This document shows, in pieces, positions 6,150 through 25,248 of a DNA stretch of 40,851 nt (positions within the stretch are counted from its first letter, which is position 1; the number at the start of each line of letters is the position of its first letter). Source of the stretch: Candidatus Edwardsbacteria bacterium (lineage in GTDB: Bacteria; Edwardsbacteria; AC1; EtOH8); assembly GCA_018821925.1 (NCBI GenBank), contig JAHJLF010000069.1, positions 1 through 40,851 of the forward strand, read 5' to 3'. The position numbers were made by a program, and so were the translations under genes. The notes under the pieces were generated by a model. That model had not been told where the DNA came from and ran no database searches. It saw nothing but the letters and a program-made list of their open reading frames with translations.

Positions 6150-6185
6150 TTTAACCATTAGATATTAAGTATGAAAGGCATGAAA

Positions 6186-7100
6186 ATGTACAGAAAAATA
6201 TCTTACATCTCTTTAGCGTTATGTCTATTATTTATCAATGCTATCGGGCAGACACTAAAAGAACAATTCAATGAATTGCTTTCAAAAAAAGATGATTCCG
6301 GACAACAAGCATTGCTTAAAAGGTGGGAACAACAGCATCCCAATGACCCGGAATTATATGTAGCCTACTTTAATTATTATGCGAATAAAAGCAGAAAAGA
6401 AGTTGTGGAGTTGGGGACACAACCAAAAGGCGAGAAATATCTGAAATTGCTTGACAAAGACAGCACTAAGAAAGAGCCTGTTGGCTATATGTACGGTGAT
6501 ATATATTATGAACCTGAAATATTAAATAAGGGAATTGCATATATTGATAAGGGGATACTTAAATATCCGAATAGGTTGGATATGAGATTTGGTAAGATTT
6601 ATATGTATGGTCAAATCAAAGATTATGATAACTTTACTAAAGATATCATAAAAACAATTAAATATTCCACTGTTATCAATAATGGATGGACTTGGTCTGA
6701 TAATAAGCCGTTAGAAGAACCAAAGAAATTCATGTTAAACGCCGTTCAAGACTATGTCAATCAATTATATAATACAGAGGAAGATGCATTACTTGAAAAC
6801 ATGAAGCAAATTTCCGAAACTGTGCTTAAACATTATCCAGACCATGTTGAGAGTATGTCAAATGTTGCAATTGTACATCTTTTGAAGAAGCAATATGAAC
6901 AAGGTTTAAATATGCTTTTCAAGGCAGAAAAATTAGCGCCTAAAGACCCCATAATTCTAAACAATATCGCTCAGGTGTATAAACGAAAAGGTGATAGTAG
7001 AAATGCAATTAAATATTATGAAAAAACCATGAAATATGGTGATGGTCAATCAAAAGAATATGCAAAACAGCAGATTGAAGAACTTAAAAAGAAACAATAA
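6186..7100 (+). CDS. Exported TPR-repeat protein, AT-rich gene
   Basis: The protein of about 304 residues starts with a hydrophobic signal segment (MYRKISYISLALCLLFINAIG), so it is probably exported to the periplasm. The C-terminal third reads as tetratricopeptide repeats (ALLENMKQISETVLKHYPD, NVAIVHLLKKQYEQGLNML, NNIAQVYKRKGDSRNAIKY). The start at 6186 is chosen because AAAGG at 6174-6178 lies 7 bases before it; ATGs at 6171 and 6180 are alternatives. Base use is unlike the neighbours: a hand count of 6481-6540 gives 17 G or C in 60. That suggests transfer from an AT-rich donor. Function is unknown; TPRs point to a protein-binding role. Confidence 0.75.
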   Translation: MYRKISYISLALCLLFINAIGQTLKEQFNELLSKKDDSGQQALLKRWEQQHPNDPELYVAYFNYYANKSRKEVVELGTQPKGEKYLKLLDKDSTKKEPVGYMYGDIYYEPEILNKGIAYIDKGILKYPNRLDMRFGKIYMYGQIKDYDNFTKDIIKTIKYSTVINNGWTWSDNKPLEEPKKFMLNAVQDYVNQLYNTEEDALLENMKQISETVLKHYPDHVESMSNVAIVHLLKKQYEQGLNMLFKAEKLAPKDPIILNNIAQVYKRKGDSRNAIKYYEKTMKYGDGQSKEYAKQQIEELKKKQ

Positions 7101-14034: not shown

Positions 14035-14925
14035 ATGAACAAGATATCCTATTATCCTGGCTGTACTCTTAGCAACACTGCAAAGAATTTTGACCTTTCG
14101 GCCAGGGAATCGATGAAAGCCCTGGGCTGGGAGCTGGAGGAGTTGCCCAGATGGAACTGTTGCGGCACCGTTTATTCCCTGGCCTCGGACAACCTGATCA
14201 ACCATGTGGCTCCAATCAGGCTGTTGATCCATACCCAGGAATTGGGCCGGGATAAACTAACCACCCTGTGCAGCATGTGCTACCATACCCTGAAAATGTC
14301 CAATCTGATGGTACAGCAAGATAAGGACAAGCTGGAGAAGATCAATTTCTTCATCAAGGACAAGGATGCCGAGTATAAGGGCAAAGTAGAGGTGCTGCAT
14401 CTGTTGGAGATAATTAAAAACGACATCGGTTTCGATAAAATAAAGGAAAAAACCTCCAAACCGCTAAAAGGGCTTAAGCTGGCGCCGTACTATGGCTGCC
14501 TGCTCACACGTCCCAAAGCCGCAGCTATCGATGATGTGGAGATGCCGACCATCATGAGCGATTTTATCAATTCCCTGGGCGCCCAGGCGGTGTACGATCC
14601 CTGTCTCACCGAATGCTGCGGATCCTACCACACCGTGATGGACCAGGAGGTGGTGGCCGACAAGGCCGAGCGGATAATATCGTCGGCCATAAAGAACGGC
14701 GCCGAGGCCATAATCACCAGCTGTCCGCTGTGCTTCTTCAACCTGGATGAGCGCCAGAAGAACATCCAGGAAAAAACCGGCAAGACCTATGATCTCCCCA
14801 TCCTGTATTTTACCCAGCTGCTGGCCCTGGGACTGGGATTGGGAGCGGAGGTCTGTAAATTCGACCTGCATCATATCGATCCCCGGCCGCTGCTAAGGGC
14901 TAAAAAAATTCTAGAGGAGGAATAA
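14035..14925 (+). CDS. hdrB: Heterodisulfide reductase subunit B-like CCG protein
   Basis: HdrB is the catalytic subunit with two non-cubane [4Fe-4S] clusters in methanogens; in bacteria the natural substrate is often unknown. The 296-residue protein has two CCG domains. The first is canonical, C-x31-CC-x35-CxxC (PGCTLS, NCCGTVYS, CSMC). The second is C-x38-CC-x34-CxxC (YGCLLTRP, ECCGSYH, CPLC). There is no membrane segment. Related CCG proteins also act as the SdhE anchor subunit of some succinate dehydrogenases, which matters here because frdBA lie just downstream. GGAGAAAAC precedes the ATG. Confidence 0.93.
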   Translation: MNKISYYPGCTLSNTAKNFDLSARESMKALGWELEELPRWNCCGTVYSLASDNLINHVAPIRLLIHTQELGRDKLTTLCSMCYHTLKMSNLMVQQDKDKLEKINFFIKDKDAEYKGKVEVLHLLEIIKNDIGFDKIKEKTSKPLKGLKLAPYYGCLLTRPKAAAIDDVEMPTIMSDFINSLGAQAVYDPCLTECCGSYHTVMDQEVVADKAERIISSAIKNGAEAIITSCPLCFFNLDERQKNIQEKTGKTYDLPILYFTQLLALGLGLGAEVCKFDLHHIDPRPLLRAKKILEEE

Positions 14926-14929
14926 AATA

Positions 14930-16345
14930 ATGTTTATTAGTACTTTTGTTGTGCTCGTTGATATTTCAAAGTATACTCAATTAACAGAGGAAGACCCAAA
15001 TAAGGCATCACAGGCTTCGCGAATTCTTGAAGATATTACACAGAAAGTTCTAGAGATAAGGGATGGAGAGTATATTAAATCAAAAGGTGATTCGGTATTA
15101 TTAAAAATTGAAACGTTCGATAATGCATATGATATAACCAAAATGATACATTCTAGATGGTGTTATGCGAAAAAGATTATTGGTATTGATAATGATCTAC
15201 ATTCTTGTATTACATACGGACAAGTTACTTATGATGGCCGACCGAAAGTTGATATTCTTGGAGGCCCTGTAAACCAAACAGATAGAATATCAAAGCAAAC
15301 ACCCACAAATAGCATATATATTTCCGAAGATGTAAAAACACAGATTGCAGGTGATAGTAATTATATAAGTGAAGATAAGGGTGAATTTGATTTGACTGAT
15401 TTTGGGCAAAAACATTTATATTCTGTTATGCGAAAGAATGACGATTTGATATCTATCGTTAATAAGATCATTAATAAAATCAAAGAAATAAGAAAAACGA
15501 TTTTAGAGGAAGTAAAATTCACTACAGCTCGAAGTGATCTGCCCCGACTTGGGGATCAACATCCTATGACGGATGATGAAGTCGCTGATAAATTTGAAAA
15601 GGCGTTAAGTGGTATTGATGTTTATTTTGTTTCTGAACATAAGACGGCAGTTGAACTAGATGAACTAAAGAAATATAAGTATGTTTGTATCCTTGATCCC
15701 ATAGATGGTTCAGTAAATTCAATGCATGGTCTGCCCTTTGGTTCTAATTTTGCGATAGGTAAAGTAAGAGATAATGTATTTTCGATTAAGGATATTGATG
15801 CAGTAATTGTTGTTGATTATCAAAGTGGTATTTATCATAAATGGGTTATGGGTGATGCTGCGGAGTTAGTGCGTATACTTGACGATGGTTCACAAATCCA
15901 ATTGGATATTACCTATAAAGATCCATCTTTATTTGAAGTCCCTGATGAAAACAGTTATATTAGAGACGAGAATGGGAAGAAAAGACAAGAAAAATTACTA
16001 CATGTATTTAGGCAGATGTTCCCTGTCATTCAAAGACGTTCATTAGACAGCACTGGACTGCGTATGTTGGCTGTTGTAGATAGAAATTTAAGAGCTTATG
16101 GTGATAACCGTGAAGTAACCTACATTTGGGATACAATACCATCTATTAGGTATATGATGGAGTTTAATGATATAAAACTATTGAAAGGCGACGGCACAGA
16201 GTATAAAGGTTCTGATTGGATAATTCGCTCACAAGATAAAAAGACAGTGAAGAATAATATTGGTACATCTTCGATAATTCTTTTCGAACAAGATTACAGC
16301 GATTTTATGAAAATCGCCGAGCAAGAAATTTTCAAGCAGGAGTAA
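14930..16345 (+). CDS. Class III adenylyl cyclase fused to inositol-monophosphatase-like domain
   Basis: This 471-residue protein has two enzyme domains. Residues 1 to about 170 read as a class III nucleotidyl cyclase: metal Asp11 (VDISKYT) and Asp54 (KSKGD), purine-site Lys50 and Asp108 (DILGGPVN), and Asn115 and Arg119 (VNQTDRI). The Lys/Asp pair favours ATP over GTP. Residues about 190-470 read as an inositol monophosphatase/CysQ-type phosphatase: Glu236 (SEH), Asp256 and Asp259 (LDPIDGS) and Asp401 (YIWDTIP). No signal or membrane segment is seen. GAGGAGG at 14914-14920 lies inside the hdrB 3' end, and the stop is 4 bases before frdB, so it is co-transcribed with the redox genes. The gene is strikingly AT-rich (16 of 60 G+C at 15361-15420) beside GC-rich frdB (46 of 60 at 16441-16500), suggesting acquisition. 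The products are inferred. Confidence 0.8.
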   Translation: MFISTFVVLVDISKYTQLTEEDPNKASQASRILEDITQKVLEIRDGEYIKSKGDSVLLKIETFDNAYDITKMIHSRWCYAKKIIGIDNDLHSCITYGQVTYDGRPKVDILGGPVNQTDRISKQTPTNSIYISEDVKTQIAGDSNYISEDKGEFDLTDFGQKHLYSVMRKNDDLISIVNKIINKIKEIRKTILEEVKFTTARSDLPRLGDQHPMTDDEVADKFEKALSGIDVYFVSEHKTAVELDELKKYKYVCILDPIDGSVNSMHGLPFGSNFAIGKVRDNVFSIKDIDAVIVVDYQSGIYHKWVMGDAAELVRILDDGSQIQLDITYKDPSLFEVPDENSYIRDENGKKRQEKLLHVFRQMFPVIQRRSLDSTGLRMLAVVDRNLRAYGDNREVTYIWDTIPSIRYMMEFNDIKLLKGDGTEYKGSDWIIRSQDKKTVKNNIGTSSIILFEQDYSDFMKIAEQEIFKQE

Positions 16346-16349
16346 ATGT

Positions 16350-17078
16350 ATGGAAGCCAAAGTAAACCTGATCCCCATCCACGTGATGGGCAAACAGTAC
16401 ATGGTGCCGGACACCCTAACTGTCATGAAGGCCATGGAGTACGCTGGCTATCAGCTGACCCGGGGCTGCGGCTGCCGGGGCGGCATCTGCGGCGCCTGCG
16501 GCATGGCCTTTCGCCTGCCCGACAGCTTCAAGATCGAGGTGGGACTGGCCTGTCAGGCCATGGTCCAGCCCAACATGTACCTGGCCATCCTGCCGTTCTT
16601 CCCCACCAAGCGCGGCATCCACGACCTGGACAAGCTCAAGGCCACCGTTGACACCTTCAAGACCCTGTACCCGGAGGTGTTCAAGTGCGTGTCCTGCAAC
16701 ACCTGCACCAAGTCCTGTCCCATGTCCATCGAAGTGATGGATTACATCAATGCGGTCATCCGGGGCGATATCGTGCAGGCGGCCGAGCTCTCTTTCGACT
16801 GCGTGATGTGCGGGCTGTGCTCCAGCCGCTGCCCGGCCGAGATCTCCCACGCCAACGTGGCCATCCTGGCCCGGCGGCTGTACGGCTCGCAGATCGCGCC
16901 GCCGGCCGAGCACCTGGCCAAACAGGCCAAACAGGTTCGAGAGGGGAAGTTCAAAGAGGGACTGGACCAGCTGAAGAAGGCTGACGTCAACAAGCTGAAG
17001 GAACTGTATAAGGCCCGGGAAGCCGAGCCGGACAACACGCCGGATGAATGGGCCCCGAAATCTAACGACTATTTATAA
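16350..17078 (+). CDS. frdB: Fumarate reductase/succinate dehydrogenase iron-sulfur subunit
   Basis: This protein carries electrons between the flavoprotein and its partner. The 242-residue length is normal. The N-terminal [2Fe-2S] domain has GCGCRGGICGACGM and the later Cys in LACQ. The C-terminal part has two cluster motifs, CVSCNTCTKSCP and CVMCGLCSSRCP. Its CAGGAG ribosome-binding site (16337-16342) lies inside the end of the cyclase-fusion gene. frdA follows 11 bases after the stop. No SdhC/D-type membrane anchor is encoded nearby, so the partner may be HdrB/HdrC. Direction (fumarate reduction or succinate oxidation) cannot be told from sequence. Confidence 0.88.
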   Translation: MEAKVNLIPIHVMGKQYMVPDTLTVMKAMEYAGYQLTRGCGCRGGICGACGMAFRLPDSFKIEVGLACQAMVQPNMYLAILPFFPTKRGIHDLDKLKATVDTFKTLYPEVFKCVSCNTCTKSCPMSIEVMDYINAVIRGDIVQAAELSFDCVMCGLCSSRCPAEISHANVAILARRLYGSQIAPPAEHLAKQAKQVREGKFKEGLDQLKKADVNKLKELYKAREAEPDNTPDEWAPKSNDYL

Positions 17079-24348: not shown

Positions 24349-25248
24349 ATGAAAATGCAATTCATACATCTGTTGTTGATACCTACACTGATGACAGCAT
24401 CGATTCAGGATTCATTATTGAATAACTATAAGAGAGATTATGAGATACTGTATCACACTTCTATAAATGAGGTTAAAAAAATTACCACAGGTGAGCAGAT
24501 TGATTTAGATTCCACGCAAAACGCCTTTCATATTCTGTTTAAGATGCAGAGACGGAGTTGTGTTAATATGATGATGAATATATTGAAATATCCGGGTGAT
24601 GTTAGATACAAGATACCAGAGACATATCAAATCGGAGTTAGCCCGATAATTGGCATAAAAATACTGGCTGCCTTGGTACTATCAAATTGCATTGAAAAAA
24701 GAGACCCAAGTGAAATTATTTCTTTTAGAAACGGTTTAAGCAAAAGTGATTTTGATGATAAATATAATATTTCGATAAGCACACTGGATAATATAATAGC
24801 TAGTTGTAAAAATGAAAAGAAAAAGGAAAGTGCGGTAGCGATAATAAGTGCTTTAAAAAATAAGCAAGATAAAGATGAGGCAATAATTAATTTGTTGGAT
24901 AGTATCTTAATTAAACCTAAGATGGAATACGATCTTACACCTCGGTCAGATGTTTTATTGCCGTATTTAAACAATTATATAAAACCAGGTTTTAATGATG
25001 AAATAAGAATAAAAGCAATAGAAGCTATGGCTAGGTTAGATCCAGATGGGTCCGTAGAGTACATTTATAAATATCTTTGGGATAAGGATAAAATAATCAG
25101 AAGAACAGTATTGGAATGTTTAGGGTATAGCACTAACAGCACATTATTGCCAATTTTTAAATATATTAGTGAAAACGATGTTGATGGAGAAATCAGGCGT
25201 TTATCTGAAGATATGTATCGGTATAATTCCACAGGAATCAAAAGATGA
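24349..25248 (+). CDS. Hypothetical HEAT-like repeat protein, AT-rich gene
   Basis: A 299-residue protein with a short hydrophobic N terminus (MQFIHLLLIPTLMTASI) that may be a signal peptide. The last 100 or so residues resemble paired helices of HEAT repeats (DEIRIKAIEAMARLDPDGSVEYI, KIIRRTVLECLGYSTNSTLL, DVDGEIRRLSEDMYRYN). The rest is not recognised. It is preceded by AAAGGAGAATGAAA, so the ATG at 24349 or 24355 can serve. The gene and its flank to about 25500 are AT-rich (20 of 60 G+C at 24781-24840), unlike the hydrogenase genes before it. That suggests separate origin. Function unknown. Confidence 0.7.
   Translation: MKMQFIHLLLIPTLMTASIQDSLLNNYKRDYEILYHTSINEVKKITTGEQIDLDSTQNAFHILFKMQRRSCVNMMMNILKYPGDVRYKIPETYQIGVSPIIGIKILAALVLSNCIEKRDPSEIISFRNGLSKSDFDDKYNISISTLDNIIASCKNEKKKESAVAIISALKNKQDKDEAIINLLDSILIKPKMEYDLTPRSDVLLPYLNNYIKPGFNDEIRIKAIEAMARLDPDGSVEYIYKYLWDKDKIIRRTVLECLGYSTNSTLLPIFKYISENDVDGEIRRLSEDMYRYNSTGIKR

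Follow-up and report, generated by a model that had tools for sequence, protein, structure and literature searches.

We identified a single gene, on the forward strand of the 40,851-nt stretch of Candidatus Edwardsbacteria DNA analyzed here (the window), whose predicted product joins a class III nucleotidyl cyclase domain to a phosphatase-superfamily domain. We consider it probable that this is a horizontally acquired fusion in an hdr/frd operon, in which an active adenylyl cyclase is joined to a phosphatase fold that either adds a second enzyme activity or senses a metabolite. Judged by sequence comparison, the presence of both domains in one protein is a real and apparently new pairing of known parent families, seen in one species so far.

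One open reading frame carries two domains

The fusion gene (P0001) occupies positions 14930 to 16345 as one unbroken open reading frame of 471 codons, running from ATG to TAA and encoding 471 amino acids, exactly where the initial annotation had placed a single frame. It is the sole open frame at this position on the forward strand or its complement. The remaining five frames contain 16 to 69 stops each, and, given the local composition, an open frame of 471 codons would arise by chance with p = 1.4e-18. The assembly carrying the gene is a draft. The class III nucleotidyl cyclase domain covers residues 1–170 (14930 to 15439), as delimited using Pfam, hhalign, shuffled sequences, and control proteins. 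The IMPase/FBPase/NADPase-superfamily phosphatase domain covers residues 174–471 (15449 to 16342), according to NCBIfam, Pfam, hhalign, and comparison with 1dk4. These and all further features of the locus described below are on the forward strand. In profile-profile comparisons, both domains scored about twice as high as every shuffle and as 73 control proteins. The residues that had been named earlier as catalytic or metal-binding (D11, K50, D54, D108, N115, R119, E236, D256, D259, and D401) were all in place.

The N-terminal cyclase domain

When the fusion was aligned with three bona fide class III cyclases (alignment A2), its D11, K50, D54, D108, N115, and R119 fell in invariant columns. 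These residues comprise both metal-binding aspartates of class III cyclases (D11, the first, encoded at 14960 to 14962, and D54, the second), the adenine-selecting Lys/Asp pair (K50 and D108), and the Asn/Arg transition-state pair (N115 and R119). Lys50 to Asp54 form the motif KSKGD (15077 to 15091), and Asp108, Asn115, and Arg119 fall within the motif DILGGPVNQTDR (15251 to 15286). Among class III cyclases, the Lys/Asp pair marks the ATP-selecting type. The active site of the N-terminal domain is complete and of this ATP type, and the domain is expected to act as an adenylyl cyclase.

Comparison of the domain against a profile of seven cyclases using hhalign gave E = 1.3e-11 and a score of 73.5; the highest values were 19.2 among 200 shuffles and 25.1 among 73 control proteins. 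This result, with six of six invariant residues, bears out the initial proposal of a class III cyclase with an ATP-type Lys/Asp set. The HMM check suggested for residues 1–170 also matched a cyclase profile, though below the curated threshold, as Pfam Guanylate_cyc (PF00211), run on residues 1–174, hit residues 8–159 with E = 1e-3 and 19.2 bits against a gathering cut-off of 21.9. The fusion shares with PF00211 cyclases the whole catalytic domain, including both metal aspartates, the Lys/Asp pair, and the Asn and Arg residues, but is divergent, scoring 19.2 bits at best, and has a phosphatase-fold partner that the searches made did not find joined to such a cyclase elsewhere.

The C-terminal phosphatase-superfamily domain

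Several profile comparisons support placing residues ~174–471 in the IMPase/FBPase/NADPase superfamily, at superfamily level. NCBIfam searches of residues 174–471 matched PRK14076 (NADP phosphatase/NAD kinase; E = 1.4e-6), class 1 FBPase (E = 1.2e-5), and the archaeal-type FBPase/IMPase PRK12676 (E = 3e-5). With the isolated C-terminal domain, Pfam matched FBPase (E = 1.9e-4; 21.5 bits, gathering cut-off 34.8) and Inositol_P (E = 9e-4; 19.2 bits, gathering cut-off 27). An HMM check had been suggested for residues 190–471; the profiles matched by residues 174–471 belong to the IMPase/FBPase superfamily, with Pfam scores below the gathering cut-offs. Because the family-profile matches are weak and all below curated cut-offs, no phosphatase subfamily or substrate is assignable. 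Against a profile of 31 IMPases, hhalign gave E = 5.7e-7, with a score that neither any of 200 shuffles nor any of 73 controls reached. The nearest PDB sequence was that of the inositol monophosphatase 1dk4 (E = 0.006), in an alignment spanning fusion residues 207–282 with only short gaps. The signal lies mostly within the first 130 residues of the domain; residues 286–471, which include D401, were not significant when scored alone, with 17 of 200 shuffles reaching their score.

The DP(I/L)DG(S/T) motif is present as D256-P-I-D259-G-S261, together with the upstream metal glutamate E236. Pfam, 1dk4, hhalign, and MAFFT all located this DPIDGS metal/phosphate motif, which contains Asp256 and Asp259 (15695 to 15712). 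Glu236 (15635 to 15637) corresponds to the metal Glu of the IMPase EE motif in the 1dk4, hhalign, and pairwise MAFFT alignments, though another MAFFT alignment places it differently. His237 stands at the position of the second Glu, such that the motif reads Glu-His in the fusion. Trp400-Asp401 (16127 to 16132), the likely WD metal motif, aligned with the IMPase WD by hhalign and MAFFT, without the GG of WD-x11-GG. D401 is a probable metal residue, and D215 is probably another. Of the phosphatase metal set originally listed, E236, D256, and D259 stand, being aligned with IMPase metal residues by hhalign and by pairwise MAFFT; D401 is aligned in the same way, but within the segment that is not significant alone. 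Compared with the IMPase/FBPase superfamily as represented by 1dk4 and PRK14076, the fusion has the GD-x(5)-D, SE, and DPIDGS motifs and probably the WD motif in common, but differs in its His237, the missing GG, larger loops, and low scores.

These features are compatible with two uses of the domain. It is possible, though short of probable, that the same protein makes cAMP and also hydrolyzes a phospho-nucleotide or sugar phosphate (NADP, pAp, FBP, or inositol phosphate). Both active sites look intact in the alignments, and the best phosphatase profile, PRK14076, is itself a two-enzyme fusion, but the matches are too weak to assign a substrate, and no homologues were found from which it could be judged whether the phosphatase site is conserved. 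We take PRK14076 to be the archaeal NADP phosphatase/NAD kinase of the MJ0917 type. It is likewise a natural fusion of a superfamily phosphatase with a second nucleotide enzyme, though its partner is a kinase and that of the fusion a cyclase. The more specific proposal of a bifunctional signaling enzyme, the first of its kind, in which one polypeptide would hold a working class III adenylyl cyclase and a working IMPase/FBPase/NADPase-type phosphatase and so tie cAMP output directly to a phosphometabolite or NADP, is speculative and seems somewhat unlikely. Alternatively, and as likely as a bifunctional enzyme in the broader sense, the IMPase/FBPase-like domain may act as a sensor through which binding of a phosphometabolite or nucleotide switches the cyclase, while catalyzing little or nothing itself. 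Sensory domains are the usual fusion partners of class III cyclases, and both the replacement of the second Glu by His237 and the absence of the GG would suit such a role, although E236, D256, D259, S261, W400, and D401 are all kept and would be unneeded by a pure sensor.

The fungal adenylyl cyclase Cyr1, which carries a PP2C-like domain, resembles the fusion in having a class III cyclase beside a phosphatase-family domain. It differs in that the PP2C fold is unrelated and on the N-terminal side, and in that the protein is very large.

Structures of the fusion were also predicted. AlphaFold2 returned a pLDDT of 44 for the fusion as a single sequence and of 54 for the C-terminal domain together with one viral-contig IMPase relative. 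Using the latter model, Foldseek found no match in the PDB below E = 0.001; CysQ 3b8b and FBPases were among the weak matches. We consider these models too poor to weigh either for or against the domain assignments.

Search for the same pairing elsewhere

Searches of ~430 genomes and of plasmids, phages, and viral contigs turned up no other protein that combines both domains. The 386 diverse genomes and two further phyla yielded no fusion, with matches covering one domain only. Neither 72,556 plasmids (one cyclase-only match) nor 50,697 phages contained a whole-protein homologue, and 8-mer patterns run against viral contigs and GTDB contigs revealed no fusion homologue. The gene was also missing from all nine other genomes of the family that were searched. 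A DNA architecture pattern, consisting of the cyclase D..G..VN...R followed by DP(I/L)DG about 379–439 nt on, matched only the fusion gene within the window. Across the contigs of 84,980 species it gave four matches, none of them a fusion, which is about the number estimated by chance, and when allowed either GAT or GAC it matched nothing in viral contigs. As applied to genome contigs, the pattern allows only GAT at one codon and only a narrow range of spacings, so that many candidates escape it; the search therefore shows that the pairing is rare, not that it is absent. Among the papers searched, none joined the two domain names. The first reading of this DNA had treated the pairing as unfamiliar, and no sign of it emerged elsewhere in genomes, plasmids, phages, viral contigs, or the pattern search of 84,980 species. 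Against our preferred explanation, no homologue was found that would show selection keeping both domains together.

The hdrB-frdB junction varies among relatives

The left neighbor of the fusion gene encodes an HdrB-like CCG-domain subunit (14035 to 14925; PF02754, E = 5.5e-17), which is 93% identical in the congeners G002 and G003. The right neighbor encodes an FrdB/SdhB-like iron-sulfur subunit (16350 to 17078; Fer4 families), 92% identical in the same two genomes, and is followed by genes for FrdA, HdrA, MvhD/G/A, and a hydrogenase protease. The gap from the fusion gene to each neighbor is 4 nt, in agreement with the tight spacing first described. From the sequence, the fit is seamless: a Shine-Dalgarno AGGAGG for the fusion gene (14915 to 14920) lies within the last hdrB codons. 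The end of hdrB is extended here, reading ...AKKILEEE*, whereas sister hdrB genes end ...QKNLL*, AKSII*, AKNLM*, or AKGLL*. The Shine-Dalgarno AGGAG of frdB (16338 to 16342) in turn makes up the final codons of the fusion gene, and the same GGAG spacing precedes frdB in sister genomes.

Among relatives, this junction is variable. It is empty in G002 and G003 (44 and 81 bp, respectively). G005 carries there an AT-rich gene (GC 0.28) of 195 aa, another gene of 88 aa, and one resembling a signal peptidase gene, while in G009 the junction holds DUF4258, DUF2283, and 23S-IVP genes plus a diverged copy of the 3′ end of hdrB. This last copy (L024:10085-10234) comprises the final 54 hdrB codons and follows the DUF4258/DUF2283 pair, as if the insert had brought its own gene end.

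The initial annotation had linked the fusion to the H2/fumarate redox state. A regulator of the redox operon that senses and reports this state would fit the tight position between hdrB and frdB. It would also have a precedent in CyaC of Sinorhizobium meliloti, a redox-regulated class III cyclase whose SDH/FRD-like membrane haem-B domain responds to quinones (PMC10463352). That domain has no counterpart in the fusion, however, and searches of Pfam and NCBIfam matched the fusion protein to no haem, flavin, or Fe-S family. The fusion is moreover found in this species only, being missing from congeners that share the operon, and in other species unrelated genes occupy the junction. We therefore regard a redox regulator as very unlikely. 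The proposed link was not supported, the gene being a species-specific AT-rich insert; two congeners have no gene at this junction, and two family members have unrelated ones. Since the same junction varies among relatives and the genome is peppered with AT-rich inserts, the redox neighbors are informative on expression and not on function; the hdr/frd genes probably supply expression alone.

AT-rich gene acquisition in this genome

The fusion gene has a GC content of 0.34 and a GC3 of 0.25, compared with GC of 0.51 and 0.61 and GC3 of 0.68 and 0.86 in its direct neighbors, confirming its reported AT-richness. Because the halves are equally AT-rich (GC 0.324 for the N-terminal and 0.347 for the C-terminal half), the gene appears to have been acquired in one piece and not to be a joint between native and foreign parts. 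In the 571 kb sampled from this genome (the window and L067-L106), 52 ORFs fell below a GC of 0.42; a 53rd entry was a run of N and was left out. Most of these ORFs stand alone, surrounded by genes with a GC of about 0.55. With the two higher-GC neighbors on one strand, the AT-rich ORF was codirectional with them in 21 of 21 cases, some with gaps of a few bases or short overlaps. The families represented include restriction-modification, nuclease, and methyltransferase proteins, as well as TonB receptors. As the fusion gene is missing from nine family genomes, two congener junctions are empty, and it is one of ~50 AT-rich genes, it is, on sequence grounds, a lateral acquisition, and a recent one. 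With this genome-wide pattern, the genome is a clear case of operon-embedded gene acquisition and cautions against inferring function from operon neighbors.

Two further AT-rich genes in the window can be compared with congeners. A TPR gene (6171-7100) lies at the junction of 2-hydroxyacid dehydrogenase and malic enzyme, where G003 has an unrelated AT-rich gene of 272 aa (L022:1198-2016) and G002 another stretch of 0.35 GC; this is a second variable junction. A HEAT-repeat gene (24349-25248) is 95% identical in G003 over the available stretch and missing at the syntenic place in G002.

An acquired gene of this kind could be defense or selfish cargo, a phage-defense-type cyclic-nucleotide gene riding in the operon and unrelated to host metabolism. 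Its AT-rich, sporadic character, as one of many inserts that include restriction-modification and nuclease families, would agree with this, as would a weak match to PycC (E = 0.0027). That match covers only 40 residues, however, the adjacent genes encode HdrB and FrdB and no cyclic-nucleotide effector, and PADLOC returned no cyclase-IMPase system; we consider such cargo unlikely. Membership of Pycsar itself was rejected given the 40-residue extent of the PycC match, the HdrB and FrdB neighbors, and the adenine-type Lys/Asp pair.

Proposed role in the host

The analysis establishes the single gene, its two domain assignments and their motifs, the sporadic AT-rich acquisition, and cNMP-binding proteins in the host, and from these we can postulate how the fusion might work. 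A species-specific AT-rich gene was acquired horizontally and came to lie in a hydrogenase/heterodisulfide-reductase/fumarate-reductase-like operon, with hdrB on one side and frdB on the other. The gene brings its own ribosome-binding site and is presumably co-transcribed with the operon. The product is predicted to be soluble and is probably a homodimer, as both parent families need or prefer dimers. Its N-terminal class III adenylyl cyclase would most likely make cAMP for the existing cNMP-binding regulators of the host. The C-terminal metal-dependent phosphatase domain, by profile nearest to archaeal-type FBPase/IMPase and NADP phosphatase, may be active as a second enzyme, with a small phosphate ester as its substrate, or may instead bind a metabolite and regulate the cyclase, and the two domains would presumably be coupled.

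Fused domains are the source of the diversity of class III cyclases. A partner from the phosphatase superfamily would link cAMP to a phosphometabolite in a manner for which our searches returned no description. The fusion is one small soluble protein and is easily assayed.

The host genome also encodes other class III cyclases, 11 cNMP-binding matches, and its own ordinary IMPase. With 11 cNMP-binding matches at hand, a new source of cAMP would be expected to meet candidate receptors. Another cyclase of this genome (L029:3473-4468), for which no effector was identified, matches PycC with E = 9e-12 and adjoins a type IIG-like restriction-modification gene.
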